Shown piece by piece: positions 1 to 64,000 of a stretch of 64,000 nt of DNA. The stretch covers positions 1,178,001-1,242,000 of the forward strand of contig CP136064.1 of NCBI GenBank assembly GCA_032622095.1. The letters are read 5' to 3'. The first letter of the stretch is position 1, and each line of letters begins with the position of its first letter. The DNA is from Siphonodentalium dalli (taxonomy: Eukaryota > Mollusca > Scaphopoda > Gadilida > Siphonodentaliidae). The notes beneath the pieces are model-generated. The model made no database searches. It was given only the letters and a program-made list of their open reading frames with translations, and had not been told where the DNA came from. The translations under genes were made by a program, and so were the position numbers.

Positions 1-2594
1 TGTAACTCAACTTAAAAGGAGATAAGTAACACAGTCACCAACTTAAAGGGGTGTCTGATTTAGACTGGTTCCATGGTGGAGTACGGTTGGATATTTTCAA
101 TTTGGCGCATGTTTCTCCATACCGCGCCATGTCAAATCTGGCCATATCCGAATCGGGTTGTCATTTACAATGACTGCAGAAAATAAATATCTTCATGTTG
201 GAATGCAAATGTATGTTTAAAGGAACAGATGTATCTCAACTTAAAGGAACATAGGTAACACAGTCACCAACTTAAAGAGGTGTCTGATTTAGACTGGTTC
301 CATGGTGGAGTACGGTTGGATATTTTCTATTTGGCGCATGTTTCTCCATACCGCGCCATGTCAAATCTGGCCATATCCGAATCGGGTTGTCATTTACAAT
401 GACTACAGAAAATAAATATCTTCATGTTGGAATGCAAATGTATGTTTAAAGGAACAGATGTATCTCAACTTAAAGGGACATAAGTAACACAGTCACCAAC
501 TTTAAGGGGTATCTGCTATAGACTGGTTCCATGGTGGAGTACGGTTGGATATTTACTATTTGGCGCATGTTTCTCCATACCGCGCCATGTCAAATCTGGC
601 CATATCCGAATTGGGTTGTCATTTACAATGACTACAGAAAATAAATATCTTCATGTTGGAATGCAAATGTATGTTTAAAGAAACAGATGTATCTCAACTT
701 AAAGGGACATAATAAGTAGCACAGTCACCAACTTTAAGGGGTATCTGCTATAGACTGGTTCCATGGTGGAGTACTGTTGGATATTTTCAATTTGGCGCAT
801 GTTTCTCCCTACCGCGCCATGTCAAATCTGGCCATATCCGAATCGGGTTGTCATTTACAATGACTACAGAAAATAGATATCTTCATGTTGGAATGCAAAT
901 GTATGTTTAAAGGAACAGATGTATCTCAACTTAAAGGGACATAAGTAACACAGTCACCAACTTAAAGGGGTATCTGCTATAGACTGGTTCCATGGTGGAG
1001 TACGGTTGGATATTTTCAATTTGGCGCATGTTTCTCCATACCGCGCCATGTCAAATCTGGCCATATCCGAATCGGGTTGTCATTTACAATGACTGCAGAA
1101 AATATATATCTTCATGGTGGAATGCAAATGTATGTTTAAAGGAACAGATGTATCTCAACTTAAAGGGACATAAGTAACACAGTCACCAACTTAAAGAGGT
1201 GTCTGATTTAGACTGGTTCCATGGTGGAGTACGGTTGGATATTTTCTATTTAGCGCATGTTTCTCCATACCGCGCCATGTCAAATCTGGCCATATCCGAA
1301 TCGGGTTGTCATTTACAATGATTACAGAAAATAAATATCTTCATGTTGGAATGCAAATGTATGTTTAGAGGAACAGATGTATCTCAACTTAAAGGGACAT
1401 AAGTAACACAGTCACCAACTTTAAGGGGTATCTGCTATAGACTGGTTCCATGGTGGAGTACGGTTGGATATTTACTATTTGGCGCATGTTTCTCCATACC
1501 GCGCCATGTCAAATCTGGCCATATCCGAATCGGGTTGTCATTTACAATGACTACAGAAAATAAATATCTTCATGTTGGAATGCAAATGTATGTTTAAAGG
1601 AACAGATGTATCTCAACTTAAAGGGACATAAGTAACACAGTCACCAACTTAAAGGGGTATCTGCTATAGACTGGTTCCATGGTGGAGTACGGTTGGATAT
1701 TTTCAATTTGGCGCATGTTTCTCCATACCGCGCCATGCCAAATCTGGCCCTATCCGAATCGGGTTGTCATTTACAATGACTGCAGAAAATATATATCTTC
1801 ATGGTGGAATGCAAATGTATGTTTAAAGGAACAGATGTATCTCAACTTAAAGGGACATAAGTAACACAGTCACCAACTTTAAGGGGTATCTGCTATAGAC
1901 TGGTTCCATGGTGGAGTACGGTTGGATATTTTCAATTTGGCGCATGTTTCTCCATACCGCGCCATGTCAAATCTGGCCCTATCCGAATCGGGTTGTCATT
2001 TACAATGACTGCAGAAAATATATATCTTCATGTTGGAATGCAAATGTATGTTTAAAGAAACAGATGTATCTCAACTTAAAGCGACATAAGTAGCACAGTC
2101 ACCAACTTTAAGGGGTATCTGCTATAGACTGGTTCCATGGTGGAGTACTGTTGGATATTTTCAATTTGGCGCATGTTTCTCCCTACCGCGCCATGTCAAA
2201 TCTGGCCATATCCGAATCGGGTTGTCATTTACAATGACTACAGAAAATAAATATCTTCATGTTGGAATGCAAATGTATGTTTAAAGGAACAGGTGTATCT
2301 CAACTTAAAGGGAGATAAGTAACACAGTCACCAACTTTAAGGGGTATCTGCTATAGACTGGTTCCATGGTGGAGTACGGTTGGATATTTTCAATTTGGCG
2401 CATGTTTTTCCATACCGCGCCATGTCAAATCTGGCCATATCCGAATCGGGTTGTCATTTACAATGACTACAGAAAATAAATATCTTCATGTTGGAAAGCA
2501 AATGTATGTTTAAAGGAACAGATGTATCTCAACTTAAAGGGACATAAGTAACACAGTCACCAACTTTAAGGGGTATCTGCTATAGACTGGTTCC
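1..2594 (+). repeat. Irregular lead-in monomers without a clean HOR period
   Basis: This stretch holds the left partial copy and eleven complete monomers starting at 73, 302, 531, 763, 992, 1221, 1450, 1679, 1908, 2137 and 2366. I see no repeating class order. Monomers 1221 and 1450 match the last two monomers of the 13-mer to the right: 1221 carries TTTAGCGC, GATTACAG and GTTTAGAGG, and 1450 carries TTACTATTT. The four monomers 1679-2594 are then interposed before the 13-mer begins at 2595. Monomer 531 is 3 bp too long. The higher private variation (for example CATGCCAAAT in 1679, AAAGCGACAT in 1908) fits material that is less recently homogenised. Confidence 0.85.
531..762 (+). repeat. 232-bp monomer with a 3-bp insertion
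   Basis: The distance from the ATG at 531 to the next at 763 is 232 bp instead of 229. The extra three bases lie near 710-714, where GGACATAAGTAG of other monomers reads GGACATAATAAGTAG, consistent with a local duplication of TAA or AAT. It is the only expanded monomer in the window. Confidence 0.9.
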
Positions 2595-5500
2595 ATGGTG
2601 GAGTACGGTTGGAAATTTTCAATTTGGCGCATGTTACTCCATACCGCGCCATGTCAAATCTGGCCATATCCGAATCGGGTTGTCATTTACAATAACTGCA
2701 GAAAATATATATCTTCATGGTGGAATGCAAATGTATGTTTAAAGGAACAGATGTATCTCAACTTAAAGGGACATAAGTAACACAGTCACCAACTTAAAGG
2801 GGTATCTGCTATAGACTGGTTCCATGGTGGAGTACGGTTGGATATTTTCAATTTGGTGCATGTTTCTCCATACCGCGCCATGTCAAATCTGGCCATATCC
2901 GAATCGGGTTGTCATTTACAATGACTACAGAAAATAAATATCTTCATGTTGGAATGCAAATGTATGTTTAAAGAAACAGATGTATCTCAACTTAAAGGGA
3001 CATAAGTAACACAGTCACCAACTTTAAGGGGTATCTGCTATAGACTGGTTCCATGGTGGAGTACTGTTGGATATTTTTAATTTAGCGCATGTTTCTCCCT
3101 ACCGCGCCATGTCAAATCTGGCCATATCCGAATCGGGTTGTCATTTACAATGACTGCAGAAAATATATATCTTCATGGTGGAATGCAAATGTATGTTTAA
3201 AGGAACAGATGTATCTCAACTTAAAGGGACATAAGTAACACAGTCACCAACTTTAAGGGGTATCTGCTATAGACTGGTTCCATGGTGGAGTACGGTTGGA
3301 TATTTTCAATTTGGCGCATGTTTCTCCATACCGCGCCATGTCAAATCTGGCCATATCCGAATCGGGTTGTCATTTACAATGACTGCAGAAAATATATATC
3401 TTCATGTTGGAATGCAAATGAATGTTTAAAGGAACAGATGTATCTCAACTTAAAGGGACATAAGTAACACCGTCACCAACTTTAAGGGGTATCTGCTATA
3501 GACTGGTTACATGGTGGAGTACGGTTGGATATTTTCAATTTTGCGCATGTTTCTCCATACCGCGCCATGTCAAATCTGGCCATATCCGAATCGGGTTGTC
3601 ATTTACAATGACTGCAGAAAATAAATATCTTCATGTTGGAATGCAAATGTATGTTTAAAGGAACAGATGTATCTCAACTTAAAGGGACATAAGTAACACA
3701 GTCACCAACTTTAAGGGGTATCTGCTATAGACTGGTTCCATGGTGGAGTACGGTTGGATATTTACTATTTGGCGCATGTTTCTCCATACCGCGCCATGTC
3801 AAATCTGGCCATATCCGAATCGGGTTGTCATTTACAATGACTACAGAAAATAAATATCTTCATGTTGGAATGCAAATGTATGTTTAAAGGAAGAGATGTA
3901 TCTCAACTTAAAGGGACATAAGTAACACCGTCACCAACTTTAAGGAGTATCTGCTATAGACTGGTTCCATGGTGGAGTACTGTTGCATATTTTCAATTTG
4001 GCGCATGTTTTTTCATACCGCGCCATGTCAAATCTGGCCATATCCGAATCGGGTTGTCATTTTCAATGACTACAGAAAATAAATATCTTCATGTTGGAAT
4101 GCAAATGTATGTTTAAAGGAACAGATGTATCTCAACTTAAAGGGACATAAGTAACACAGTCACCAACTTAAAGGGGTATCTGCTATAGACTGGTTCCATG
4201 GTGGAGTACGGTTGGATATTTTCAATTTGGCGCATGTTTCTCCATACCGCGCCATGTCAAATCTGGCCATATCCGAATCGGGTTGTCATTTACAATGACT
4301 GCAGAAAATATATATCTTCATGGTGGAATGCAAATGTATGTTTAAAGGAACAGATGTATCTCAACTTAAAGGGACATAAGTAACACAGTCACCAACTTAA
4401 AGGGGTATCTGCTATAGACTGGTTCCATGGTGGAGTACGGTTGAATATTTTCAATTTGGCGCATGTTTCTCCATACCGCGCCATGTCAAATCTGGCCCTA
4501 TCCGAATCGGGTTGTCATTTACCATGACTGCAGAAAATATATATCTTCATGGTGGAATGCAAATGTATGTTTAAAGGAACAGATGTCTCTCAACTTAAAG
4601 GGACATAAGTAACACAGTCACCAACTTTAAGGGGTATCTGCTATAGACTGGTTCCATGGTGGAGTACGGTTGGATATTTTCAATTTGGAGCATGTTTCTC
4701 CATACCGCGCCATGTCAAATCTGGCCATATCCGAATCGGGTTGTCATTTACAATGACTGCAGAAAATAAATATCTTCATGTTGGAATGCAAATGAATGTT
4801 TGAAGGAACAGATGTATCTCAACTTAAAGGGACATAAGTAACACCGTCACCAACTTTAAGGGGTATCTGCTATAGACTGGTTACATGGTGGAGTACGGTT
4901 GGATATTTTCAATTTTGCGCATGTTTCTCCATACCGCGCCATGTAAAATCTGGCCATATCCGAATCGGGTTGTCATTTACAATGACTGCAGAAAATAAAT
5001 ATCTTCATGTTGGAATGCAAATGTATGTTTAAAGGAACAGATGTATCTCAACTTAAAGGGACATAAGTAACACAGTCACCAACTTAAAGAGGTGTCTGAT
5101 TTAGACTGGTTCCATGGTGGAGTACGGTTGGATATTTTCTATTTAGCGCATGTTTCTCCATACCGCGTCATGTCAAATCTGGCCATATCCGAATCGGGTT
5201 GTCATTTACAATGATTACAGAAAATAAATATCTTCATGTTGGAATGCAAATGTATGTTTAGAGGAACAGATGTATCTCAACTTAAAGGGACATAAGTAAC
5301 ACAGTCACCAACTTTAAGGGGTATCTGCTATAGACTGGTTCCATGGTGGAGTACGGTTGGATATTTACTATTTGGCGCATGTTTCTCCATACCGCGCCAT
5401 GTCAAATCTGGCCATATCCGAATCGGGTTGTCATTTACAATGACTACAGAAAATAAATATCTTCATGTTGGAATGCAAATGTATGTTTAAAGGAACAGAT

Positions 5501-8500
5501 GTATCTCAACTTAAAGGGACATAAGTAACACAGTCACCAACTTAAAGGGGTATCTGCTATAGACTGGTTCCATGGTGGAGTACGGTTGGAAATTTTCAAT
5601 TTGGCGCATGTTACTCCATACCGCGCCATGTCAAATCTGGCCATATCCGAATCGGGTTGTCATTTACAATAACTGCAGAAAATATATATCTTCATGGTGG
5701 AATGCAAATGTATGTTTAAAGGAACAGATGTATCTCAACTTAAAGGGACATAAGTAACACAGTCACCAACTTAAAGGGGTATCTGCTATAGACTGGTTCC
5801 ATGGTGGAGTACGGTTGGATATTTTCAATTTGGTGCATGTTTCTCCATACCGCGCCATGTCAAATCTGGCCATATCCGAATCGGGTTGTCATTTACAATG
5901 ACTACAGAAAATAAATATCTTCATGTTGGAATGCAAATGTATGTTTAAAGAAACAGATGTATCTCAACTTAAAGGGACATAAGTAACACAGTCACCAACT
6001 TTAAGGGGTATCTGCTATAGACTGGTTCCATGGTGGAGTACTGTTGGATATTTTTAATTTAGCGCATGTTTCTCCCTACCGCGCCATGTCAAATCTGGCC
6101 ATATCCGAATCGGGTTGTCATTTACAATGACTGCAGAAAATATATATCTTCATGGTGGAATGCAAATGTATGTTTAAAGGAACAGATGTATCTCAACTTA
6201 AAGGGACATAAGTAACACAGTCACCAACTTTAAGGGGTATCTGCTATAGACTGGTTCCATGGTGGAGTACGGTTGGATATTTTCAATTTGGCGCATGTTT
6301 CTCCATACCGCGCCATGTCAAATCTGGCCATATCCGAATCGGGTTGTCATTTACAATGACTGCAGAAAATATATATCTTCATGTTGGAATGCAAATGAAT
6401 GTTTAAAGGAACAGATGTATCTCAACTTAAAGGGACATAAGTAACACCGTCACCAACTTTAAGGGGTATCTGCTATAGACTGGTTACATGGTGGAGTACG
6501 GTTGGATATTTTCAATTTTGCGCATGTTTCTCCATACCGCGCCATGTCAAATCTGGCCATATCCGAATCGGGTTGTCATTTACAATGACTGCAGAAAATA
6601 AATATCTTCATGTTGGAATGCAAATGTATGTTTAAAGGAACAGATGTATCTCAACTTAAAGGGACATAAGTAACACAGTCACCAACTTTAAGGGGTATCT
6701 GCTATAGACTGGTTCCATGGTGGAGTACGGTTGGATATTTACTATTTGGCGCATGTTTCTCCATACCGCGCCATGTCAAATCTGGCCATATCCGAATCGG
6801 GTTGTCATTTACAATGACTACAGAAAATAAATATCTTCATGTTGGAATGCAAATGTATGTTTAAAGGAAGAGATGTATCTCAACTTAAAGGGACATAAGT
6901 AACACCGTCACCAACTTTAAGGAGTATCTGCTATAGACTGGTTCCATGGTGGAGTACTGTTGCATATTTTCAATTTGGCGCATGTTTTTCCATACCGCGC
7001 CATGTCAAATCTGGCCATATCCGAATCGGGTTGTCATTTTCAATGACTACAGAAAATAAATATCTTCATGTTGGAATGCAAATGTATGTTTAAAGGAACA
7101 GATGTATCTCAACTTAAAGGGACATAAGTAACACAGTCACCAACTTAAAGGGGTATCTGCTATAGACTGGTTCCATGGTGGAGTACGGTTGGATATTTTC
7201 AATTTGGCGCATGTTTCTCCATACCGCGCCATGTCAAATCTGGCCATATCCGAATCGGGTTGTCATTTCCAATGACTGCAGAAAATATATATCTTCATGG
7301 TGGAATGCAAATGTATGTTTAAAGGAACAGATGTATCTCAACTTAAAGGGACATAAGTAACACAGTCACCAACTTAAAGGGGTATCTGCTATAGACTGGT
7401 TCCATGGTGGAGTACGGTTGAATATTTTCAATTTGGCGCATGTTTCTCCATACCGCGCCATGTCAAATCTGGCCCTATCCGAATCGGGTTGTCATTTACC
7501 ATGACTGCAGAAAATATATATCTTCATGGTGGAATGCAAATGTATGTTTAAAGGAACAGATGTCTCTCAACTTAAAGGGACATAAGTAACACAGTCACCA
7601 AATTTAAGGGGTATCTGCTATAGACTGGTTCCATGGTGGAGTACGGTTGGATATTTTCAATTTGGAGCATGTTTCTCCATACCGCGCCATGTCAAATCTG
7701 GCCATATCCGAATCGGGTTGTCATTTACAATGACTGCAGAAAATAAATATCTTCATGTTGGAATGCAAATGAATGTTTGAAGGAACAGATGTATCTCAAC
7801 TTAAAGGGACATAAGTAACACCGTCACCAACTTTAAGGGGTATCTGCTATAGACTGGTTACATGGTGGAGTACGGTTGGATATTTTCAATTTTGCGCATG
7901 TTTCTCCATACCGCGCCATGTAAAATCTGGCCATATCCGAATCGGGTTGTCATTTACAATGACTGCAGAAAATAAATATCTTCATGTTGGAATGCAAATG
8001 TATGTTTAAAGGAACAGATGTATCTCAACTTAAAGGGACATAAGTAACACAGTCACCAACTTAAAGAGGTGTCTGATTTAGACTGGTTCCATGGTGGAGT
8101 ACGGTTGGATATTTTCTATTTAGCGCATGTTTCTCCATACCGCGCCATGTCATATCTGGCCATATCCGAATCGGGTTGTCATTTACAATGATTACAGAAA
8201 ATAAATATCTTCATGTTGGAATGCAAATGTATGTTTAGAGGAACAGATGTATCTCAACTTAAAGGGACATAAGTAACACAGTCACCAACTTTAAGGGGTA
8301 TCTGCTATAGACTGGTTCCATGGTGGAGTACGGTTGGATATTTACTATTTGGCGCATGTTTCTCCATACCGCGCCATGTCAAATCTGGCCATATCCGAAT
8401 CGGGTTGTCATTTACAATGACTACAGAAAATAAATATCTTCATGTTGGAATGCAAATGTATGTTTAAAGGAACAGATGTATCTCAACTTAAAGGGACATA

Positions 8501-8548
8501 AGTAACACAGTCACCAACTTAAAGGGGTATCTGCTATAGACTGGTTCC
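2595..8548 (+). repeat. HOR block A: 13-mer (2977 bp), two tandem copies
   Basis: Copy 1 is 2595-5571 and copy 2 is 5572-8548. Thirteen monomers recur in the same order. They are recognised by these marks: GGAAATTTTC (2595, 5572); GGTGCATG (2824, 5801); TTTTTAATTTAGCGC (3053, 6030); AATGAATGTTTAAAG (3282, 6259); TTACATGG (3511, 6488); TTACTATTT with AGGAAGAG (3740, 6717); GTTGCATATT (3969, 6946); consensus (4198, 7175); GTTGAATATT with ACCATGAC (4427, 7404); GGAGCATG with GTTTGAAGG (4656, 7633); GTAAAATC (4885, 7862); TTTAGCGC with GATTACAG (5114, 8091); TTACTATTT (5343, 8320). The copies differ at only a few bases, for example GCGTCATG near 5167 and GTCATATC near 8151. The order breaks at 8549, where an M1 monomer replaces the expected GGAAATTTTC type. 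Confidence 0.93.
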
Positions 8549-9723
8549 ATGGTGGAGTACGGTTGGATATTTTCAATTTGGCGCATGTTTCTCCATACCG
8601 CGCCATGTCAAATCTGGCCATATCCGAATCGGGTTGTCATTTACAATGACTGCAGAAAATATATATCTTCATGTTGGAATGCAAATGTATGTTTAAAGGA
8701 ACAGATGTATCTCAACTTAAAGGGACATAAGTAACACAGTCACCAACTTTAAGGGGTATCTGCTATAGACTGGTTACATGGTGGAGTACGGTTGGATATT
8801 TTCAATTATGCGCATGTTTCTCCATACCGCGCCATGTCAAATCTGGCCATATCCGAATCGGGTTGTCATTTACAATGACTGCAGAAAATAAATATCTTCA
8901 TGTTGGAATGCAAATGTATGTTTAAAGGAACAGATGTATCTCAACTTAAAGGAACATAAGTAACACAGTCACCAACTTAAAGAGGTGTCTGATTTAGACT
9001 GGTTCCATAGTGGAGTACGGTTGGATATTTTCTATTTGGCGCATGTTTCTCCATACCGCGCCATGTCAAATCTGGCCATATCCGAATCGGGTTGTCATTT
9101 ACAATGACTACAGAAAATAAATATCTTCATGTTGGAATGCAAATGTATGTTTAAAGGAACAGATGTATCTCAACTTAAAGGGACATAAGTAACACAGTCA
9201 CCAACTTTAAGGGGTATCTGCTATAGACTGGTTCCATGGTGGAGTACGGTTGGATATTTTCTATTTGGCGCATGTTTCTCCATACTGCGCCATGTCAAAT
9301 CTGGCCATATCCGAATCGGGTTGTCATTTACAATGACTACAGAAAATAAATATCTTCATGTTGGAATGCAAATGTATGTTTAAAGAAACAGATGTATCTC
9401 AACTTAAAGGAACATAAGTAACACAGACACCAACTTTAAGGGGTATCTGCTATAGACTGGTTCCATGGTGGAGTACTGTTGGATATTTTCAATTTGGCGC
9501 ATGTTTCTCCCTACCGCGCCATGTCAAATCTGGCCATATCCGAATCGGGTTGTCATTTACAATGACTACAGAAAATAAATATCTTCATGTTGGAATGCAA
9601 ATGTATGTTTAAACGAACAGATGTATCTCAACTTAAAGGGACATAAGTAACACAGTCACCAACTTAAAGGGGTATCTGCTATAGACTGGTTCCATGGTGG
9701 AGTACGGTTGGATATTTTCAATT

Positions 9724-9750
9724 TGGCGCATGTTTCTCCATACCGCGCCA
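9724..9750. repeat. Inverted repeat TGGCGC...GCGCCA in the monomer
   Basis: Monomer positions 31-36 and 52-57 are perfect reverse complements separated by 15 bases. They are shown here in the reference monomer. M2, M3-related and N classes alter the left arm, and M8 and N3 alter the right arm, without matching changes on the other side. Pairing is therefore not visibly maintained. Confidence 0.7.
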
Positions 9751-9768
9751 TGTCAAATCTGGCCATAT

Positions 9769-9777
9769 CCGAATCGG
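9769..9777. repeat. Odd palindrome CCGA-W-TCGG
   Basis: Positions 76-84 form a 9-bp inverted repeat with a single central base. The centre is A in most monomers and T in class N5, which leaves both arms intact. It was kept in nearly all monomers I read; 20228 (CCAAATCGG) is a clear break, and 21373 changes both arms in a complementary way. Confidence 0.75.
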
Positions 9778-9780
9778 GTT

Positions 9781-9795
9781 GTCATTTACAATGAC
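9781..9795. repeat. Hairpin-forming inverted repeat GTCATT-TAC-AATGAC
   Basis: Positions 88-102 contain 6-bp perfect arms around a 3-base centre, and an overlapping TTGT/ACAA pair is also possible. Most monomers keep both arms; TTC replaces TAC in the GTTGCATATT and fusion classes. The ACCATGAC, CATTGAC and GATTACAG classes break one pair each. Confidence 0.7.
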
Positions 9796-9837
9796 TGCAG
9801 AAAATATATATCTTCATGGTGGAATGCAAATGTATGT

Positions 9838-9899
9838 TTAAAGGAACAGATGTATCTCAACTTAAAGGGACATAAGTAACACAGTCACCAACTTAAAGG
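9838..9899 (+). repeat. Three spaced TTAAAGG motifs per monomer
   Basis: TTAAAGG occurs at monomer positions 145-151, 169-175 and 200-206, that is 24 and 31 bp apart. The last two lie within a 12-bp direct repeat CAACTTAAAGGG (165-176 and 196-207). In many classes the third copy is degraded to CTTTAAGG. This suggests the monomer's right third grew by an internal duplication. Confidence 0.75.
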
Positions 9900-12800
9900 G
9901 GTATCTGCTATAGACTGGTTCCATGGTGGAGTACTGTTGGATATTTTCAATTTGGCGCATGTTTCTCCCTACCGCGCCATGTCAAATCTGGCCATATCCG
10001 AATCGGGTTGTCATTTACAATGACTACAGAAAATAAATATCTTCATGTTGGAATGCAAATGTATGTTTAAAGGAACAGATGTATCTCAACTTAAAGGGAC
10101 ATAAGTAACACAGTCACCAACTTAAAGGGGTATCTGCTATAGACTGGTTCCATGGTGGAGTACGGTTGGATATTTTCAATTTGGCGCATGTTTCTCCATA
10201 CCGCGCAATGTCAAATCTGGCCATATCCGAATCGGGTTGTCATTTACAATGACTGCAGAAAATATATATCTTCATGGTGGAATGCAAATGTATGTTTAAA
10301 GGAACAGATGTATCTCAACTTAAACGGACATAAGTAACACAGTCACCAACTTAAAGGGGTATCTGCTATAGACTGGTTCCATGGTGGAGTACGGTTGGAT
10401 ATTTTCAATTTGGCGCATGTTTCTCCATACCGCGCCATGTCAAATCTGGCCCTATCCGAATCGGGTTGTCATTTACAATGACTGCAGAAAATATATATCT
10501 TCATGGTGGAATGCAAATGTATGTTTAAAGGAACAGATGTATCTCAACTTAAAGGGACATAAGTAACACAGTCACCAACTTAAAGGGGTATCTGCTATAG
10601 ACTGGTTCCATGGTGGAGTACGGTTGGATATTTTCAATTTGGCGCATGTTTCTCCATACCGCGCCATGTCAAATCTGGCCATATCCGAATCGGGTTGTCA
10701 TTTACAATGACTGCAGAAAATATATATCTTCATGTTGGAATGCAAATGTATGTTTAAAGGAACAGATGTATCTCAACTTAAAGGGACATAAGTAACACAG
10801 TCACCAACTTTAAGGGGTATCTGCTATAGACTGGTTACATGGTGGAGTACGGTTGGATATTTTCAATTATGCGCATGTTTCTCCATACCGCGCCATGTCA
10901 AATCTGGCCATATCCGAATCGGGTTGTCATTTACAATGACTGCAGAAAATAAATATCTTCATGTTGGAATGCAAATGTATGTTTAAAGGAACAGATGTAT
11001 CTCAACTTAAAGGAACATAAGTAACACAGTCACCAACTTAAAGAGGTGTCTGATTTAGACTGGTTCCATGGTGGAGTACGGTTGGATATTTTCTATTTGG
11101 CGCATGTTTCTCCATACCGCGCCATGTCAAATCTGGCCATATCCGAATCGGGTTGTCATTTACAATGACTACAGAAAATAAATATCTTCATGTTGGAATG
11201 CAAATGTATGTTTAAAGGAACAGATGTATCTCAACTTAAAGGGACATAAGTAACACAGTCACCAACTTTAAGGGGTATCTGCTATAGACTGGTTCCATGG
11301 TGGAGTACGGTTGGATATTTTCTATTTGGCGCATGTTTCTCCATACTGCGCCATGTCAAATCTGGCCATATCCGAATCGGGTTGTCATTTACAATGACTA
11401 CAGAAAATAAATATCTTCATGTTGGAATGCAAATGTATGTTTAAAGAAACAGATGTATCTCAACTTAAAGGAACATAAGTAACACAGTCACCAACTTTAA
11501 GGGGTATCTGCTATAGACTGGTTCCATGGTGGAGTACTGTTGGATATTTTCAATTTGGCGCATGTTTCTCCCTACCGCGCCATGTCAAATCTGGCCATAT
11601 CCGAATCGGGTTGTCATTTACAATGACTACAGAAAATAAATATCTTCATGTTGGAATGCAAATGTATGTTTAAACGAACAGATGTATCTCAACTTAAAGG
11701 GACATAAGTAACACAGTCACCAACTTAAAGGGGTATCTGCTATAGACTGGTTCCATGGTGGAGTACGGTTGGATATTTTCAATTTGGCGCATGTTTCTCC
11801 ATACCGCGCCATGTCAAATCTGGCCCTATCCGAATCGGGTTGTCATTTACAATGACTGCAGAAAATATATATCTTCATGGTGGAATGCAAATGTATGTTT
11901 AAAGGAACAGATGTATCTCAACTTAAAGGGACATAAGTAACACAGTCACCAACTTAAAGGGGTATCTGCTATAGACTGGTTCCATGGTGGAGTACGGTTG
12001 GATATTTTCAATTTGGCGCATGTTTCTCCATACCGCGCCATGTCAAATCTGGCCATATCCGAATCGGGTTGTCATTTACAATGACTGCAGAAAATATATA
12101 TCTTCATGTTGGAATGCAAATGTATGTTTAAAGGAACAGATGTATCTCAACTTAAAGGGACATAAGTAACACAGTCACCAACTTTAAGGGGTATCTGCTA
12201 TAGACTGGTTACATGGTGGAGTACGGTTGGATATTTTCAATTATGCGCATGTTTCTCCATACCGCGCCATGTCAAATCTGGCCATATCCGAATCGGGTTG
12301 TCATTTACAATGACTGCAGAAAATAAATATCTTCATGTTGGAATGCAAATGTATGTTTAAAGGAACAGATGTATCTCAACTTAAAGGAACATAAGTAACA
12401 CAGTCACCAACTTAAAGAGGTGTCTGATTTAGACTGGTTCCATGGTGGAGTACGGTTGGATATTTTCTATTTGGCGCATGTTTCTCCATACCGCGCCATG
12501 TCAAATCTGGCCATATCCGAATCGGGTTGTCATTTACAATGACTACAGAAAATAAATATCTTCATGTTGGAATGCAAATGTATGTTTAAAGGAACAGATG
12601 TATCTCAACTTAATGGGACATAAGTAACACAGTCACCAACTTTAAGGGGTATCTGCTATAGACTGGTTCCATGGTGGAGTACGGTTGGATATTTTCTATT
12701 TGGCGCATGTTTCTCCATACTGCGCCATGTCAAATCTGGCCATATCCGAATCGGGTTGTCATTTACAATGACTACAGAAAATAAATATCTTCATGTTGGA

Positions 12801-14273
12801 ATGCAAATGTATGTTTAAAGAAACAGATGTATCTCAACTTAAAGGAACATAAGTAACACAGTCACCAACTTTAAGGGATATCTGCTATAGACTGGTTCCA
12901 TGGTGGAGTACTGTTGGATATTTTCAATTTGGCGCATGTTTCTCCCTACCGCGCCATGTCAAATCTGGCCATATCCGAATCGGGTTGTCATTTACAATGA
13001 CTACAGAAAATAAATATCTTCATGTTGGAATGCAAATGTATGTTTAAACGAACAGATGTATCTCAACTTAAAGGGACATAAGTAACACAGTCACCAACTT
13101 AAAGGGGTATCTGCTATAGACTGGTTCCATGGTGGAGTACGGTTGGATATTTTCAATTTGGCGCATGTTTCTCCATACCGCGCCATGTCAAATCTGGCCA
13201 TATCCGAATCGGGTTGTCATTTACAATGACTGCAGAAAATATATATCTTCATGGTGGAATGCAAATGTATGTTTAAAGGAACAGATGTATCTCAACTTAA
13301 AGGGACATAAGTAACACAGTCACCAACTTAAAGGGGTATCTGCTATAGACTGGTTCCATGGTGGAGTACTGTTGGATATTTTCAATTTGGCGCATGTTTC
13401 TCCCTACCGCGCCATGTCAAATCTGGCCATATCCGAATCGGGTTGTCATTTACAATGACTACAGAAAATAAATATCTTCATGTTGGAATGCAAATGTATG
13501 TTTAAAGGAACAGATGTATCTCAACTTAAAGGGACATAAGTAACACAGTCACCAACTTAAAGGGGTATCTGCTATAGACTGGTTCCATGGTGGAGTACGG
13601 TTGGATATTTTCAATTTGGCGCATGTTTCTCCATACCGCGCAATGTCAAATCTGGCCATATCCGAATCGGGTTGTCATTTACAATGACTGCAGAAAATAT
13701 ATATCTTCATGGTGGAATGCAAATGTATGTTTAAAGGAACAGATGTATCTCAACTTAAACGGACATAAGTAACACAGTCACCAACTTAAAGGGGTATCTG
13801 CTATAGACTGGTTCCATGGTGGAGTACGGTTGGATATTTTCAATTTGGCGCATGTTTCTCCATACCGCGCCATGTCAAATCTGGCCCTATCCGAATCGGG
13901 TTGTCATTTACAATGACTGCAGAAAATATATATCTTCATGGTGGAATGCAAATGTATGTTTAAAGGAACAGATGTATCTCAACTTAAAGGGACATAAGTA
14001 ACACAGTCACCAACTTTAAGGGGTATCTGCTATAGACTGGTTCCATGGTGGAGTACGGTTGGATATTTTCAATTTGGCGCATGTTTCTCCATACCGCGCC
14101 ATGTCAAATCTGGCCATATCCGAATCGGGTTGTCATTTACAATGACTGCAGAAAATATATATCTTCATGTTGGAATGCAAATGTATGTTTAAAGGAACAG
14201 ATGTATCTCAACTTAAAGGGACATAAGTAACACAGTCACCAATATTAAGGGGTATCTGCTATAGACTGGTTCC

Positions 14274-14502
14274 ATGGTGGAGTACGGTTGGATATTTTCA
14301 ATTATGCGCATGTTTCTCCATACCGCGCCATGTCAAATCTGGCCATATCCGAATCGGGTTGTCATTTACAATGACTGCAGAAAATATATATCTTCATGTT
14401 GGAATGCAAATGTATGTTTAAAGGAACAGATGTATCTCAACTTAAAGGAACATAAGTAACACAGTCACCAACTTAAAGAGGTGTCTGATTTAGACTGGTT
14501 CC
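14274..14502 (+). repeat. Mosaic monomer (M1-like flanks with an M2 patch)
   Basis: This monomer and its duplicate at 17480-17708 are mosaics. The left side is M1-like (CAATATTAAG upstream and CCATGG intact), the middle carries the M2 mark CAATTATGCGC, position 114 returns to the M1 state (T), and the end has the M2 mark A176 (AAAGGAACAT). At 19312-19998 the two presumed parents stand side by side as separate monomers (19541 and 19770). At least three class switches within 229 bp fit gene conversion better than a single crossover. Confidence 0.75.
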
Positions 14503-42431: not shown

Positions 42432-42660
42432 ATGGTGGAGTACGGTTGGATATTTTCTATTTGGCGCATGTTTCTCCATACCGCGCCATGTCAAATCTGG
42501 CCCTATCCGATTCGGGTTGTCATTTACAATGACTGCAGAAAATATATATCTTCATGGTGGAATGCAAATGTATGTTTAAAGAAACAGATGTATCTCAACT
42601 TAAAGGGACATAAGTAGCACAGTCACCAACTTTAAGGGGTATCTGCTATAGACTGGTTCC

Positions 42661-53600: not shown

Positions 53601-56400
53601 CATAAGTAACACAGTCACCAACTTTAAGGGGTATCTGCTATAGACTGGTTCCATGATGGAGTACGGTTGGATATTTTCAATTTGGAGCATGTTTCTCCAT
53701 ACCGCGCCATGTCAAATCTGGCCATATCCGAATCGGGTTGTCATTTACAATGACTGCAGAAAATAAATATCTTCATGTTGGAATGCAAATGAATGTTTGA
53801 AGGAACAGATGTATCTCAACTTAAAGGGACATAAGTAACACCGTCACCAACTTTAAGGGGTATCTGCTATAGACTGGTTACATGGTGGAGTACGGTTGGA
53901 TATTTTCAATTTTGCGCATGTTTCTCCATACCGCGCCATGTAAAATCTGGCCATATCCGAATCGGGTTGTCATTTACAATGACTGCAGAAAATAAATATC
54001 TTCATGTTGGAATGCAAATGTATGTTTAAAGGAACAGATGTATCTCAACTTAAAGGGACATAAGTAACACAGTCACCAACTTAAAGAGGTGTCTGATTTA
54101 GACTGGTTCCATGGTGGAGTACGGTTGGATATTTTCTATTTAGCGCATGTTTCTCCATACCGCGCCATGTCAAATCTGGCCATATCCGAATCGGGTTGTC
54201 ATTTACAATGACTACAGAAAATAAATATCTTCATGTTGGAATGCAAATGTATGTTTAGAGGAACAGATGTATCTCAACTTAAAGGGACATAAGTAACACA
54301 GTCACCAACTTTAAGGGGTATCTGCTATAGACTGGTTCCATGGTGGAGTACGGTTGGATATTTACTATTTGGCGCATGTTTCTCCATACCGCGCCATGTC
54401 AAATCTGGCCATATCCGAATCGGGTTGTCATTTACAATGACTACAGAAAATAAATATCTTCATGTTGGAATGCAAATGTATGTTTAAAGGAACAGATGTA
54501 TCTCAACTTAAAGGGACATAAGTAACACAGTCACCAACTTAAAGGGGTATCTGCTATAGACTGGTTCCATGGTGGAGTACGGTTGGATATTTTCAATTTG
54601 GCGCATGTTTCTCCATACCGCGCCATGTCAAATCTGGCCATATCCGAATCGGGTTGTCATTTACAATGACTGCAGAAAATAAATATCTTCATGTTGGAAT
54701 GCAAATGTATGTTTAAAGGAACAGATGTATCTCAACTTAAAGGAACATAAGTAACACAGTCACCAACTTAAAGAGGTGTCTGATTTAGACTGGTTCCATG
54801 GTGGAGTACGGTTGGATATTTTCTATTTGGCGCATGTTTCTCCATACCGCGCCATGTCAAATCTGGCCATATCCGAATCGGGTTGTCATTTACAATGACT
54901 ACAGAAAATAAATATCTTCATGTTGGAATGCAAATGTATGTTTAAAGGAACAGATGTATCTCAACTTAAAGGGACATAAGTAACACAGTCACCAACTTTA
55001 AGGGGTATCTGCTATAGACTGGTTCCATGGTGGAGTACGGTTGGATATTTTCTATTTGGCGCATGTTTCTCCATACTGCGCCATGTCAAATCTGGCCATA
55101 TCCGAATCGGGTTGTCATTTACAATGACTACAGAAAATAAATATCTTCATGTTGGAATGCAAATGTATGTTTAAAGAAACAGATGTATCTCAACTTAAAG
55201 GGACATAAGTAACACAGTCACCAACTTTAAGGGGTATCTGCTATAGACTGGTTCCATGGTGGAGTACTGTTGGATATTTTCAATTTGGCGCATGTTTCTC
55301 CCTACCGCGCCATGTCAAATCTGGCCATATCCGAATCGGGTTGTCATTTACAATGACTACAGAAAATAAATATCTTCATGTTGGAATGCAAATGTATGTT
55401 TAAAGGAACAGATGTATCTCAACTTAAAGGGACATAAGTAACACAGTCACCAACTTAAAGGGGTATCTGCTATAGACTGGTTCCATGGTGGAGTACGGTT
55501 GGATATTTTCAATTTGGCGCATGTTTCTCCATACCGCGCCATGTCAAATCTGGCCATATCCGAATCGGGTTGTCATTTACAATGACTGCAGAAAATATAT
55601 ATCTTCATGGTGGAATGCAAATGTATGTTTAAAGGAACAGATGTATCTCAACTTAAAGGGACATAAGTAACACAGTCACCAACTTAAAGGGGTATCTGCT
55701 ATAGACTGGTTCCATGGTGGAGTACTGTTGGATATTTTCAATTTGGCGCATGTTTCTCCCTACCGCGCCATGTCAAATCTGGCCATATCCGAATCGGGTT
55801 GTCATTTACAATGACTACAGAAAATAAATATCTTCATGTTGGAATGCAAATGTATGTTTAAAGGAACAGATGTATCTCAACTTAAAGGGACATAAGTAAC
55901 ACAGTCACCAACTTAAAGGGGTATCTGCTATAGACTGGTTCCATGGTGGAGTACGGTTGGATATTTTCAATTTGGCTCATGTTTCTCCATACCGCGCCAT
56001 GTCAAATCTGGCCCTATCCGAATCGGGTTGTCATTTACAATGACTGCAGAAAATATATATCTTCATGGTGGAATGCAAATGTATGTTTAAAGGAACAGAT
56101 GTATCTCAACTTAAAGGGACATAAGTAACACAGTCACCAACTTTAAGGGGTATCTGCTATAGACTGGTTCCATGGTGGAGTACGGTTGGATATTTTCAAT
56201 TTGGCGCATGTTTCTCCATACCGCGCCATGTCAAATCTGGCCATATCCGAATCGGGTTGTCATTTACAATGACTGCAGAAATTATATATCTTCATGTTGG
56301 AATGCAAATGTATGTTTAAAGGAACAGATGTATCTCAACTTAAAGGGACATAAGTAACACAGTCACCAATATTAAGGGGTATCTGCTATAGACTGGTTCC
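47699..56400 (+). repeat. HOR block G: 19-mer (4351 bp), two tandem copies
   Basis: Copy 1 is 47699-52049 and copy 2 is 52050-56400. The order is N4, N5, fusion (42661 type), fusion (42890 type), GTAAAATC, consensus, AAGGGG fusion, the four A-family monomers, consensus-like with A114, M3, M4, M5-like, M6, M7, C72 with GGCTCATG, and M1-like with GAAATTATATATC. The private change GATGTAACTC is present near 48314 and 52665, exactly 4351 bp apart, which confirms the duplication. Copy 1 overlaps the end of block F, so the 19-mer is a younger amplification built from the 24-mer edge plus a five-monomer run of block B classes (M3-M7). Confidence 0.92.
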
Positions 56401-59400
56401 ATGGTGGAGTACGGTTGGATATTTTCAATTTGGCGCATGTTTCTCCATATCGCGCCATGTCAAATCTGGCCATATCCGAATCGGGTTGTCATTTACAATG
56501 ACTGCAGAAAATATATATCTTCATGTTGGAATGCAAATGTATGTTTAAAGGAACAGATGTATCTCAACTTAAAGGGACATAAGTAACACCGTCACCAACT
56601 TTAAGGGGTATCTGCTATAGACTGGTTACATGGTGGAGTACGGTTGGATATTTGCAATTTTGCGCATGTTTCTCCATACCGCGACATGTCAAATCTGGCC
56701 ATATCCGAATCGGGTTGTCATTTACATTGACTGCAGAAAATATATATCTTCATGTTGGAATGCAAATGTATGTTTAAAGGAACAGATGTATCTCAATTTA
56801 AAGGGACATAAGTAACATAGTCACCAACTTTAAGGGGTATCTGCTATAGACTGGTTACATGGTGGAGTACGGTTGGATATTTTCAATTTTGCGCATGTTT
56901 CTCCATACCGCGCCATGTCAAATCTGGCCATATCCGAATCGGGTTGTCATTTACAATGACTGCAGAAAATAAATATCTTCATGTTGGAATGCAAATGTAT
57001 GTTTAAAGGAACAGATGTATCTCAACTTAAAGGGACATAAGTAACACAGTCACCAACTTTAAGGGGTATCTGCTATAGACTGGTTCCATGGTGGAGTACG
57101 GTTGGATATTTTCAATTTGGTGCATGTTTTTCCATACCGCGCCATGTCAAATCTGGCCATATCCGAATCGGGTTGTCATTTACAATGACTACAGAAAATA
57201 AATATCTTCATGTTGGAAAGCAAATGTATGTTTAAAGGAACAGATGTATCTCAACTTAAAGGGACATAAGTAACACAGTCACCAACTTAAAGGGGTATCT
57301 GCAATAGACTGGTTCCATGGTGGAGTACGGTTGGATATTTTCAATTTGGCGCATGTTTCTCCATACCGCGCCATGTCAAATCTGGCCATATCCGAATCGG
57401 GTTGTCATTTACAATGACTGCAGAAAATATATATCTTCATGGTGGAATGCAAATGTATGTTTAAAGGAACAGATGTATCTCAACTTAAAGGGACATAAGT
57501 AACACAGTCACCAACTTAAAGGGGTATCTGCTATAGACTGGTTCCATGGTGGAGTACGGTTGGATATTTTCAATTTGGTGCATGTTTCTCCATACCGCGC
57601 CATGTCAAATCTGGCCATATCCGAATCGGGTTGTCATTTACAATGACTACAGAAAATAAATATCTTCATGTTGGAATGCAAATGTATGTTTAAAGAAACA
57701 GATGTATCTCAACTTAAAGGGACATAAGTAACACAGTCACCAACTTTAAGGGGTATCTGCTATAGACTGGTTCCATGGTGGAGTACTGTTGCATATTTTC
57801 AATTTGGCGCATGTTTTTCCATACCGCGCCATGTCAAATCTGGCCATATCCGAATCGGGTTGTCATTTTCAATGACTACAGAAAATAAATATCTTCATGT
57901 TGGAATGCAAATGTATGTTTAAAGGAACAGATGTATCTCAACTTAAAGGGACATAAGTAACACAGTCACCAACTTAAAGGGGTATCTGCTATAGACAGGT
58001 TCCATGGTGGAGTACGGTTGGATATTTTCAATTTGGCGCATGTTTCTCCATACCGCGCCATGTCAAATCTGGCCCTATCCGAATCGGGTTGTCATTTACC
58101 ATGACTGCAGAAAATATATATCTTCATGGTGGAATGCAAATGTATGTTTAAAGGAACAGATGTATCTCAACTTAAAGGGACATAAGTAACACCGTCACCA
58201 ACTTTAAGGGGTATCTGCTATAGACTGGTTACATGGTGGAGTACGGTTGGATATTTTCAATTTTGCGCATGTTTCTCCATACCGCGCCATGTAAAATCTG
58301 GCCATATCCGAATCGGGTTGTCATTTTCAATGACTACAGAAAATAAATATCTTCATGTTGGAATGCAAATGTATGTTTAAAGGAACAGATGTATCTCAAC
58401 TTAAAGGGACATAAGTAACACAGTCACCAACTTAAAGGGGTATCTGCTATAGACTGGTTCCATGGTGGAGTACTGTTGGATATTTTCAATTTGGCGCATG
58501 TTTCTCCCTACCGCGCCATGTCAAATCTGGCCATATCCGAATCGGGTTGTCATTTACAATGACTACAGAAAATAAATATCTTCATGTTGGAATGCAAATG
58601 TATGTTTAAAGGAACAGATGTATCTCAACTTAAAGGGACATAAGTAACACAGTCACCAACTTAAAGGGGTATCTGCTATAGACTGGTTCCATGGTGGAGT
58701 ACGGTTGGATATTTTCAATTTGGCGCATGTTTCTCCATACCGCGCCATGTCAAATCTGGCCCTATCCGAATCGGGTTGTCATTTACAATGACTGCAGAAA
58801 ATATATATCTTCATGGTGGAATGCAAATGTATGTTTAAAGGAACAGATGTATCTCAACTTAAAGGGACATAAGTAACACAGTCACCAACTTTAAGGGGTA
58901 TCTGCTATAGACTGGTTCCATGGTGGAGTACGGTTGGATATTTTCAATTTGGCGCATGTTTCTCCATACCGCGCCATGTCAAATCTGGCCATATCCGAAT
59001 CGGGTTGTCATTTACAATGACTGCAGAAATTATATATCTTCATGTTGGAATGCAAATGTATGTTTAAAGGAACAGATGTATCTCAACTTAAAGGGACATA
59101 AGTAACACAGTCACCAATATTAAGGGGTATCTGCTATAGACTGGTTCCATGGTGGAGTACGGTTGGATATTTTCAATTTGGCGCATGTTTCTCCATATCG
59201 CGCCATGTCAAATCTGGCCATATCCGAATCGGGTTGTCATTTACATTGACTGCAGAAAATATATATCTTCATGTTGGAATGCAAATGTATGTTTAAAGGA
59301 ACAGATGTATCTCAATTTAAAGGGACATAAGTAACACAGTCACCAACTTTAAGGGGTATCTGCTATAGACTGGTTACATGGTGGAGTACGGTTGGATATT

Positions 59401-62400
59401 TTCAATTTTGCGCATGTTTCTCCATACCGCGCCATGTCAAATCTGGCCATATCCGAATCGGGTTGTCATTTACAATGACTGCAGAAAATAAATATCTTCA
59501 TGTTGGAATGCAAATGTATGTTTAAAGGAACAGATGTATCTCAACTTAAAGGGACATAAGTAACACAGTCACCAACTTTAAGGGGTATCTGCTATAGACT
59601 GGTTCCATGGTGGAGTACGGTTGGATATTTTCAATTTGGTGCATGTTTTTCCATACCGCGCCATGTCAAATCTGGCCATATCCGAATCGGGTTGTCATTT
59701 ACAATGACTACAGAAAATAAATATCTTCATGTTGGAAAGCAAATGTATGTTTAAAGGAACAGATGTATCTCAACTTAAAGGGACATAAGTAACACAGTCA
59801 CCAACTTAAAGGGGTATCTGCAATAGACTGGTTCCATGGTGGAGTACGGTTGGATATTTTCAATTTGGCGCATGTTTCTCCATACCGCGCCATGTCAAAT
59901 CTGGCCATATCCGAATCGGGTTGTCATTTACAATGACTGCAGAAAATATATATCTTCATGGTGGAATGCAAATGTATGTTTAAAGGAACAGATGTATCTC
60001 AACTTAAAGGGACATAAGTAACACAGTCACCAACTTAAAGGGGTATCTGCTATAGACTGGTTCCATGGTGGAGTACGGTTGGATATTTTCAATTTGGTGC
60101 ATGTTTCTCCATACCGCGCCATGTCAAATCTGGCCATATCCGAATCGGGTTGTCATTTACAATGACTACAGAAAATAAATATCTTCATGTTGGAATGCAA
60201 ATGTATGTTTAAAGAAACAGATGTATCTCAACTTAAAGGGACATAAGTAACACAGTCACCAACTTTAAGGGGTATCTGCTATAGACTGGTTCCATGGTGG
60301 AGTACTGTTGCATATTTTCAATTTGGCGCATGTTTTTCCATACCGCGCCATGTCAAATCTGGCCATATCCGAATCGGGTTGTCATTTTCAATGACTACAG
60401 AAAATAAATATCTTCATGTTGGAATGCAAATGTATGTTTAAAGGAACAGATGTATCTCAACTTAAAGGGACATAAGTAACACAGTCACCAACTTAAAGGG
60501 GTATCTGCTATAGACAGGTTCCATGGTGGAGTACGGTTGGATATTTTCAATTTGGCGCATGTTTCTCCATACCGCGCCATGTCAAATCTGGCCCTATCCG
60601 AATCGGGTTGTCATTTACCATGACTGCAGAAAATATATATCTTCATGGTGGAATGCAAATGTATGTTTAAAGGAACAGATGTATCTCAACTTAAAGGGAC
60701 ATAAGTAACACCGTCACCAACTTTAAGGGGTATCTGCTATAGACTGGTTACATGGTGGAGTACGGTTGGATATTTTCAATTTTGCGCATGTTTCTCCATA
60801 CCGCGCCATGTAAAATCTGGCCATATCCGAATCGGGTTGTCATTTTCAATGACTACAGAAAATAAATATCTTCATGTTGGAATGCAAATGTATGTTTAAA
60901 GGAACAGATGTATCTCAACTTAAAGGGACATAAGTAACACAGTCACCAACTTAAAGGGGTATCTGCTATAGACTGGTTCCATGGTGGAGTACTGTTGGAT
61001 ATTTTCAATTTGGCGCATGTTTCTCCCTACCGCGCCATGTCAAATCTGGCCATATCCGAATCGGGTTGTCATTTACAATGACTACAGAAAATAAATATCT
61101 TCATGTTGGAATGCAAATGTATGTTTAAAGGAACAGATGTATCTCAACTTAAAGGGACATAAGTAACACAGTCACCAACTTAAAGGGGTATCTGCTATAG
61201 ACTGGTTCCATGGTGGAGTACGGTTGGATATTTTCAATTTGGCGCATGTTTCTCCATACCGCGCCATGTCAAATCTGGCCCTATCCGAATCGGGTTGTCA
61301 TTTACAATGACTGCAGAAAATATATATCTTCATGGTGGAATGCAAATGTATGTTTAAAGGAACAGATGTATCTCAACTTAAAGGGACATAAGTAACACAG
61401 TCACCAACTTTAAGGGGTATCTGCTATAGACTGGTTCCATGGTGGAGTACGGTTGGATATTTTCAATTTGGCGCATGTTTCTCCATACCGCGCCATGTCA
61501 AATCTGGCCATATCCGAATCGGGTTGTCATTTACAATGACTGCAGAAATTATATATCTTCATGTTGGAATGCAAATGTATGTTTAAAGGAACAGATGTAT
61601 CTCAACTTAAAGGGACATAAGTAACACAGTCACCAATATTAAGGGGTATCTGCTATAGACTGGTTCCATGGTGGAGTACGGTTGGATATTTTCAATTTGG
61701 CGCATGTTTCTCCATATCGCGCCATGTCAAATCTGGCCATATCCGAATCGGGTTGTCATTTACAATGACTGCAGAAAATATATATCTTCATGTTGGAATG
61801 CAAATGTATGTTTAAAGGAACAGATGTATCTCAACTTAAAGGGACATAAGTAACACCATCACCAACTTTAAGGGGTATCTGCTATAGACTGGTTACATGG
61901 TGGAGTACGGTTGGATATTTGCAATTTTGCGCATGTTTCTCCATACCGCGACATGTCAAATCTGGCCATATCCGAATCGGGTTGTCATTTACATTGACTG
62001 CAGAAAATATATATCTTCATGTTGGAATGCAAATGTATGTTTAAAGGAACAGATGTATCTCAATTTAAAGGGACATAAGTAACACAGTCACCAACTTTAA
62101 GGGGTATCTGCTATAGACTGGTTACATGGTGGAGTACGGTTGGATATTTTCAATTTTGCGCATGTTTCTCCATACCGCGCCATGTCAAATCTGGCCATAT
62201 CCGAATCGGGTTGTCATTTACAATGACTGCAGAAAATAAATATCTTCATGTTGGAATGCAAATGTATGTTTAAAGGAACAGATGTATCTCAACTTAAAGG
62301 GACATAAGTAACACAGTCACCAACTTTAAGGGGTATCTGCTATAGACTGGTTCCATGGTGGAGTACGGTTGGATATTTTCAATTTGGTGCATGTTTTTCC

Positions 62401-63728
62401 ATACCGCGCCATGTCAAATCTGGCCATATCCGAATCGGGTTGTCATTTACAATGACTACAGAAAATAAATATCTTCATGTTGGAAAGCAAATGTATGTTT
62501 AAAGGAACAGATGTATCTCAACTTAAAGGGACATAAGTAACACAGTCACCAACTTAAAGGGGTATCTGCAATAGACTGGTTCCATGGTGGAGTACGGTTG
62601 GATATTTTCAATTTGGCGCATGTTTCTCCATACCGCGCCATGTCAAATCTGGCCATATCCGAATCGGGTTGTCATTTACAATGACTGCAGAAAATATATA
62701 TCTTCATGGTGGAATGCAAATGTATGTTTAAAGGAACAGATGTATCTCAACTTAAAGGGACATAAGTAACACAGTCACCAACTTAAAGGGGTATCTGCTA
62801 TAGACTGGTTCCATGGTGGAGTACGGTTGGATATTTTCAATTTGGTGCATGTTTCTCCATACCGCGCCATGTCAAATCTGGCCATATCCGAATCGGGTTG
62901 TCATTTACAATGACTACAGAAAATAAATATCTTCATGTTGGAATGCAAATGTATGTTTAAAGAAACAGATGTATCTCAACTTAAAGGGACATAAGTAACA
63001 CAGTCACCAACTTTAAGGGGTATCTGCTATAGACTGGTTCCATGGTGGAGTACTGTTGCATATTTTCAATTTGGCGCATGTTTTTCCATACCGCGCCATG
63101 TCAAATCTGGCCATATCCGAATCGGGTTGTCATTTTCAATGACTACAGAAAATAAATATCTTCATGTTGGAATGCAAATGTATGTTTAAAGGAACAGATG
63201 TATCTCAACTTAAAGGGACATAAGTAACACAGTCACCAACTTAAAGGGGTATCTGCTATAGACAGGTTCCATGGTGGAGTACGGTTGGATATTTTCAATT
63301 TGGCGCATGTTTCTCCATACCGCGCCATGTCAAATCTGGCCCTATCCGAATCGGGTTGTCATTTACCATGACTGCAGAAAATATATATCTTCATGGTGGA
63401 ATGCAAATGTATGTTTAAAGGAACAGATGTATCTCAACTTAAAGGGACATAAGTAACACCGTCACCAACTTTAAGGGGTATCTGCTATAGACTGGTTACA
63501 TGGTGGAGTACGGTTGGATATTTTCAATTTTGCGCATGTTTCTCCATACCGCGCCATGTAAAATCTGGCCATATCCGAATCGGGTTGTCATTTTCAATGA
63601 CTACAGAAAATAAATATCTTCATGTTGGAATGCAAATGTATGTTTAAAGGAACAGATGTATCTCAACTTAAAGGGACATAAGTAACACAGTCACCAACTT
63701 AAAGGGGTATCTGCTATAGACTGGTTCC
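55714..63728 (+). repeat. HOR block H: 12-mer (2748 bp), three copies, middle one an 11-mer
   Basis: Copy 1 is 55714-58461 (12 monomers), copy 2 is 58462-60980 (11 monomers, 2519 bp), and copy 3 is 60981-63728 (12 monomers). The order is M7; C72 type; M1-like with GAAATTATATATC; N2; N3 with CATTGAC; T32 (CAATTTTGCGC); T34 with GGAAAGC; consensus preceded by TCTGCAATAG; T34 with AAAGAAAC; GTTGCATATT with TTTTCAATG; ACCATGAC type preceded by TAGACAGG; GTAAAATC fusion. TAGACAGG (57992, 60511 and 63259, approximate) and CTCAATTTAAAG are private to this block. Copy 2 is shorter because N2 and N3 have fused at 59149. Confidence 0.94.
59149..59377 (+). repeat. N2/N3 fusion monomer that shortened one HOR copy
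   Basis: In copies 1 and 3 of block H the N2 monomer (56401, 61668) and the N3 monomer (56630, 61897) stand in series. Here a single monomer has the N2 left half (TTTGGCGCATG, T50 at 59198, GCGCCATG) and the N3 right half (CATTGAC with T98 at 59246, CTCAATTTAAAG). The crossover is bracketed between about 59204 and 59245. The reading register and monomer length are unchanged. Confidence 0.92.
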
Positions 63729-64000
63729 ATGGTGGAGTACGGTTGGATATTTTCAATTTGGCGCATGTTTCTCCATACCGCGCCATGTCAAATCTGGCCA
63801 TATCCGAATCGGGTTGTCATTTACAATGACTGCAGAAAATATATATCTTCATGGTGGAATGCAAATGTATGTTTAAAGGAACAGATGTATCTCAACTTAA
63901 AGGGACATAAGTAACACAGTCACCAACTTAAAGGGGTATCTGCTATAGACTGGTTCCATGGTGGAGTACGGTTGGATATTTTCAATTTGGCGCATGTTTC
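63729..64000 (+). repeat. Array continues past the right edge
   Basis: One complete consensus monomer (63729-63957) and 43 bp of the next. After the GTAAAATC fusion at 63500 block H would continue with an M7 (CCCTACC) monomer, but a consensus monomer appears. This is the order of block E (40829 to 41058), so another HOR change probably begins here. Confidence 0.8.

Follow-up and report, generated by a model that had tools for sequence, protein, structure and literature searches.

Models of satellite evolution by unequal exchange (Smith 1976) and by break-induced replication (BIR) have been reviewed with homogenised higher-order repeats (HORs) as a central theme (PMC8997354, PMC8122249). Human alpha-satellite arrays, whose monomers are 30-50% apart, consist of multi-monomer HOR units duplicated blockwise, and on chromosome 8 CENP-A was mapped to a layer described as "high entropy", in which different HOR types are mixed (PMC8997354). 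HORs in a looser definition are found in Palv156, a 156-bp satellite of a CENH3-mapped plant centromere in poplar (PMC12046899), and the TmSat1/TmSat2 macro-dyad arrays of Tribolium madens represent a dominant, conserved design with orientation switches and recurring junctions (PMC13081366). Here, we analyzed 64,000 nucleotides of the scaphopod mollusc Siphonodentalium dalli (GCA_032622095.1, contig CP136064.1, called C4 below, positions 1,178,001 to 1,242,000; hereafter the window), which lie within an array of a 229-bp satellite. The genome assembly comprises nine contigs (2.2267 Gb). Ordinary segmental turnover that acts in register, is nearly indifferent to a monomer mismatch of 3% and yields no dominant HOR probably explains the window.

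The array shares features with each of these systems. As in the unequal-exchange and BIR models, blocks were duplicated out of register within a tandem array, with the 229-bp monomer phase itself kept, and form nested blocks and mosaic periods; unlike the homogenised HORs central to the reviews, they vary in size and are present in two to three copies (PMC8997354, PMC8122249). Blockwise duplication of multi-monomer units, and mixed periods as on chromosome 8, are also known from human alpha-satellite, whereas monomers of the present array are only ~3% apart, no unit was seen in more than three copies and no CENP-B core match (up to two mismatches) is present in the window (PMC8997354). With Palv156 the array has in common loosely defined HORs, a similarity that drops with distance and monomers that cluster by chromosome, whereas Palv156 is a plant satellite from a centromere mapped with CENH3 (PMC12046899). 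Orientation switches and recurring junctions resemble those of TmSat1/TmSat2, although here they were found only within 0.62 Mb of the C4 start, outside the window (PMC13081366).

Tandem Repeats Finder (TRF) returned the whole window as a single row (period 229, 279.5 copies, 96% matches), and segmentation by an alignment walk yielded 279 monomers, of which 273 were 229 bp long, four 227 bp, one 228 bp and one 232 bp. The monomers differ at 7.5 positions per pair on average (~3.3%), and the satellite keeps a single orientation across all 64 kb without any N base. As a long head-to-tail array of near-identical monomers, it is satellite DNA. The CENP-B box has a mammalian core that is not required outside some mammals; its pattern, TTCGNNNNANNCGGG, is absent from the window even when two mismatches are allowed. 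In a literature search for 229-bp satellites, none of the papers listed appeared to concern this sequence.

Local block structure was recorded as runs in which five or more successive monomer pairs at the same lag show at most two differences, tolerating single pairs with up to six differences inside a run. The window contains 96 such runs, the longest covering 24 monomers; 50 shuffles of monomer order average 3.1 runs, none longer than 8. For 240 of the 279 monomers, the best local lag (2 to 39) averages at most two differences, a figure without shuffle control. The main blocks (Table 1) span 3.7-11 kb, partly overlap and nest, and smaller 6- and 5-monomer blocks are present as well, while no tandem duplication block was found in the opening 2.5 kb of the window or in the 10 kb preceding it. 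The original prediction had described one 229-bp monomer throughout, 279 in number, organized into at least eight successive units of 13, 9/14, 12, 12, 13, 24, 19 and 12 monomers. TRF and segmentation agree with the former, and the list of periods is right in substance, lacking the 15-, 10-, 8- and 11-monomer blocks and the smaller 6- and 5-monomer ones. Two or three copies per unit is an accurate description (all blocks but one have about two copies), and the predicted replacement every 5-13 kb is close to the main block spans. Local periods indeed change along the window, but the blocks partly overlap and nest rather than simply succeeding one another. Rapid, ongoing segmental turnover, as proposed there, is in good agreement with copies that carry 0 to ~1.5 differences per monomer and with later blocks that contain earlier ones.

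The nested blocks keep the order of events. In case of the 13-monomer block at 36,635-42,817, the 14 pair differences read 0,0,1,0,1,0,0,1,0,0,0,2,3,1, and the identical list returns at lag 37 (13+24); the 24-monomer duplication is therefore the later one and copied the 13-monomer block. Similarly, lag 43 (24+19) repeats over 12 monomers the differences seen in the 24-monomer block, and lag 29 (15+14) repeats those of the 15-monomer block with one value altered. The 13-monomer event thus came first, the 24-monomer event next and the 19-monomer event last, an order with which divergence agrees (0.64, 0.12 and 0.00 differences per monomer).

Table 1. Satellite array and tandem blocks in the window (positions within the 64,000 nucleotides).
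Position	Strand	Feature	Block size (monomers)	Copies	Mean differences per monomer	Remarks
1-64000	+	229-bp satellite array, 279 monomers				TRF, segmentation
2523-8476	+	tandem duplication	13	2.00	0.46	
8477-15346	+	tandem duplication	15	2.00	0.80	
11912-18552	+	tandem duplication	14	2.07	0.07	copies part of older 15-monomer block (lag 29 run)
15118-19697	+	tandem duplication	9	2.22	0.91	
17179-21987	+	tandem duplication	10	2.10	1.55	
22217-27482	+	tandem duplication	12	1.92	0.18	
26109-29772	+	tandem duplication	8	2.00	0.50	
28399-36405	+	tandem block	12	2.92	0.26	only one of 18 reaching 2.8 copies
36635-42817	+	tandem duplication	13	2.08	0.64	predates 24-monomer block
39383-50374	+	tandem duplication	24	2.00	0.12	copied part of 13-monomer block (lag 37 run)
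47627-56328	+	tandem duplication	19	2.00	0	copied part of 24-monomer block (lag 43 run)
56787-61824	+	tandem duplication	11	2.00	0.18	
59306-64000	+	partial tandem block	12	1.75	0.78	continues to 64,114 past window

Duplication events were counted in the window plus 10 kb to its left and 20 kb to its right (94 contiguous kb, 409 monomers) by repeatedly taking out the youngest tandem duplication of at least 3 monomers with a mean of at most 2 differences. Eighteen events, 15 of them within the window, account for 216 of the 409 monomers, compared with 0 or 1 event in each of 20 shuffled monomer orders. Their sizes are 3, 6, 8, 9, 9, 10, 11, 12 (four times), 13, 13, 14, 14, 15, 19 and 24 monomers. 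One- and two-monomer events were left uncounted because near-identical pairs are no more frequent at lags 1 to 8 than among all pairs; when such events are allowed, 33 events reduce the 409 monomers to 157. Little periodicity remains in the collapsed array, where no lag of 59 points to a residual ancestral period more strongly than z = -3.1. Monomer length in the 94 kb is 229 bp in 401 of 409 cases (227 bp in six, 228 bp in one, 232 bp in one), and joins were therefore made in register, at matching monomer positions. With respect to junction phase, 5 of the 18 intervals were usable and revealed no common phase, the observed maximum being reached in 5,000 of 5,000 random placements. Of the 18 blocks present in 1.75 copies or more, just one reaches 2.8, and none exceeds three copies in the 94 kb.

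These blocks are duplications rather than amplified HORs, for which "HOR" is a loose label here. The HOR terminology of the original prediction holds in the loose definition, since block copies differ at 0-1.55 positions per monomer versus 7.5 for all pairs, but is overstated for blocks that, with one exception, have about two copies: a strict HOR array, one unit in many tandem copies, was not found in the 94 kb, where 2.92 copies is the maximum of the 18 blocks. The contrast drawn with centromeric HOR arrays was too sharp given the mixed-HOR layer of human chromosome 8 (PMC8997354).

We simulated block duplication and deletion with sizes taken from the data, using one model family and 40 runs per setting, and scored how often a maximum of at most 2.95 copies was combined with at most one block of at least 2.8 copies. 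Of the 40 identity-blind runs, 10 produced this pattern; when partner choice followed an identity preference k of 0.1, 0.3, 0.6 and 1.0, it was produced in 5, 1, 0 and 0 of 40, respectively. In a smaller set (4 runs per setting), copy number did not exceed 3.1 in any of 8 identity-blind runs, compared with 2.4-22.4 copies in 20 runs with k of at least 0.05. Within this model family, identity-blind turnover appears compatible with the observed copy-number pattern. If near-identical partners were required, a fresh duplication would favor its own period and long arrays would therefore be built. The failure of the simulations at higher k, together with the in-register joins, therefore suggests that the register was kept while variants were little matched.

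The array beyond the window was sampled along C4. Satellite is present in samples from position 1 to 2,200,500, except for three sampled non-satellite stretches, which gives an array of ~2.2 Mb; none was found at C4:2,225,001 or at five sampled places farther along, as far as 2.5 Mb. The window ends ~0.96 Mb from this sampled right edge and starts 1.18 Mb from the contig start. On the left, the array begins with contig C4 itself, so that its true edge lies past the contig start, and the first 3,000 bases of C4, which starts inside the array, hold no telomere repeat. Six of eight further 8-kb samples contain a run of at least 5 monomers, with periods differing by sample (0.44 Mb: 10/13/23; 0.70 Mb: 6/11/26; 0.90 Mb: 7/8/16; 1.05 Mb: 11/22; 1.40 Mb: 11; 2.15 Mb: 13). 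No run was seen in the samples at 1.85 Mb and at 0.30 Mb, the latter being broken by a non-satellite insert. At C4:1.60-1.63 Mb, 13- and 12-monomer duplications occur together with a 24-monomer run at a distance of 92 monomers (~21 kb), and therefore larger events than those in the window exist. No uniform multi-copy core was encountered at the sampled places, which make up a small part of the array. Further, the 1.85- and 2.15-Mb samples are nearer to each other than to other samples, which divides the array into two or more domains. The non-satellite stretches inside the array are located at 1-1050 of sample L006, 5147-8492 of L060 and 6861-7604 of L061; an open frame of 116 codons in L006 may resemble a SAP-type domain, as judged by eye.

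Satellite orientation, constant in the window, changes repeatedly between the start of C4 and 0.62 Mb. Nine switch junctions without N or intervening sequence were found (C4:0.0114-0.62 Mb), seven of them distinct. Two junction sequences are present near 11.4-12.0 kb and again near 619-620 kb, in surroundings that align at about 95-97%, and this recurrence ~600 kb apart argues that the switch junctions are real. The joined strands overlap by 3-5 nt at 4 of the 7 distinct junctions versus 6% of random joins (P = 0.0004). Minus-strand stretches at 6.5, 234 and 612 kb are alike, and the plus-strand sample closest to them is that at 1.60 Mb.

In-register tandem blocks, their sizes, their nested order and their recurrence along the array are direct observations. 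We propose that the interior of the array turns over by tandem duplication of blocks, mostly of 6-24 monomers (1.4-5.5 kb). Each event would join matching positions of two monomers and thereby preserve the 229-bp register, whereas the choice of the variant monomers joined would matter little. A new period would be used about once and then be broken up by a subsequent event that differs in size, resulting in a mosaic of short-lived local periods without a dominant HOR. The events may be unequal sister-chromatid exchanges or BIR after fork collapse, with deletions balancing duplications, and selection on a larger unit would not be needed. In-register, kilobase-size and soon overwritten blocks are what unequal exchange or BIR predicts (PMC8997354, PMC8122249).

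Several observations weigh against such identity-blind, size-free turnover. In the identity-blind simulations, the maximum copy number had a median of 3.8, higher than the 2.92 seen in the data, and in the model a weak identity preference (k = 0.1) may fit as well. One 12-monomer block did re-use its own period (2.92 copies), and of 59 lags examined in the collapsed array, 15 and 21 retain a weak similarity excess (z = -3.1 in both cases). Fourteen of the 18 events fall between 8 and 15 monomers (P = 0.0004 versus a uniform distribution over 3-24, for a range picked after the data were seen), a clustering that a size-free model leaves unexplained. Moreover, the 1.85-Mb sample lacks a tandem event, and the collapse test found none in 30 kb of a related array on contig C3, although the same 30 kb holds three runs (18 monomers at distance 21, 9 at 16 and 6 at 11).

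Long HOR arrays are commonly attributed to homology-driven unequal exchange that prefers near-identical partners. Since all joins are in register, homology guides them, and the 12-monomer block re-used to 2.92 copies would also be expected under such a preference. However, k of at least 0.3 resulted in median maxima of 4.2-12.6 copies and reproduced the data in one of 40 runs at k = 0.3 and in none at 0.6 and 1.0, and later overlapping events are mostly of a different period; we therefore regard this explanation as unlikely. It seems very unlikely that the block order and exact copies were made by mis-joined or duplicated contigs. Two events without differences (19 and 14 monomers) may be open to assembly error, and 100-base gaps exist elsewhere in the assembly, but the window is free of N, copies differ in sequence in most events, nested blocks are consistently ordered and similar blocks recur in other array samples.

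The original prediction also offered an edge zone, in which case the window would be the decayed margin of a centromeric HOR array with a uniform core elsewhere. Mixed periods are known from the outer layers of human arrays (PMC8997354), and the true left edge of the array lies beyond the contig start. With changing periods in six of the eight other 8-kb samples and at 1.60 Mb, no uniform core at the sampled places and the window roughly a megabase from either sampled end, this reading is highly improbable. A more specific and tentative version of turnover, which we consider possible but doubtful, is that the array logs replication restart. Restart would have a length scale of its own (mostly 8-15 monomers, 1.8-3.4 kb), ignore the 3% mismatch and stay in register within one orientation, while microhomology of 3-5 nt at strand switches would seed inverted segments, copies of which later arise hundreds of kb away. 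Both the size mode and the strand-switch overlap lean weakly towards replication restart over unequal exchange. If this is true, the history of fork-collapse repair in a non-model animal could be read from the array, and kinetochore-linked selection would not be needed.

Relatives of the satellite occur elsewhere in the genome. An exact 24-mer found in 90% of window monomers has 9,505 genome occurrences (8,402 and 1,103 by strand), and all 100 places among the matches listed are on C3, from 288.37 Mb onward. If the listing follows contig order, C1 and C2 are devoid of the 24-mer; as a rough estimate from sampled 24-mer densities, C4 and C3 hold most satellite copies. The C3 relative (C3:288.371-288.6 Mb) is ~94-95% like the C4 reference monomer, with six consensus differences, and is internally more diverse, at 15.6 differences per monomer pair. 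The C3 array ends between 288,600,500 and 288,700,001, ~13 Mb from the C3 end. An isolated minus-strand patch of the C4 satellite is located at C4:296,297,901-296,300,900, 2.9 Mb from the far C4 end, with non-satellite sequence sampled on either side (296.280 and 296.310 Mb), and may reflect either contig misplacement or a genuine outlier. Other repeats that look tandem by eye are found at the contig starts C2:1-600 and C5:1-600 and, beyond the C3 array, at C3:288.80 Mb. TTAGGG-type repeats have 7,137 overlapping matches in the genome, where the plant-type telomere pattern has none. The mollusc haemocyanin family PF14830 had no match in this genome, nor in 14 control genomes; PF00264 matched six times, four of the matches lying in close pairs on C1 and C2, which gives no indication of a long haemocyanin gene. 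Nine chromosomes are on record for a chiton (PMC12005716), a correspondence with the nine contigs that carries no weight here. Telomere repeats follow a 100-N run at C1:276,277.2 kb, ~0.6 Mb before the C1 end, and scaffold ends may therefore be misordered.

In conclusion, monomers that are ~97% alike and block duplications whose relative age can be read make it possible to ask whether satellite exchange prefers identical partners. In this case, any such preference seems to be slight or absent, and the array remains a mosaic where identity preference would build a uniform HOR. Ordinary segmental turnover as proposed here represents a useful worked case of a known process, not a new system, with a pattern that is about what such turnover predicts, and it bears on the question of why certain satellites make long HOR arrays while others do not.

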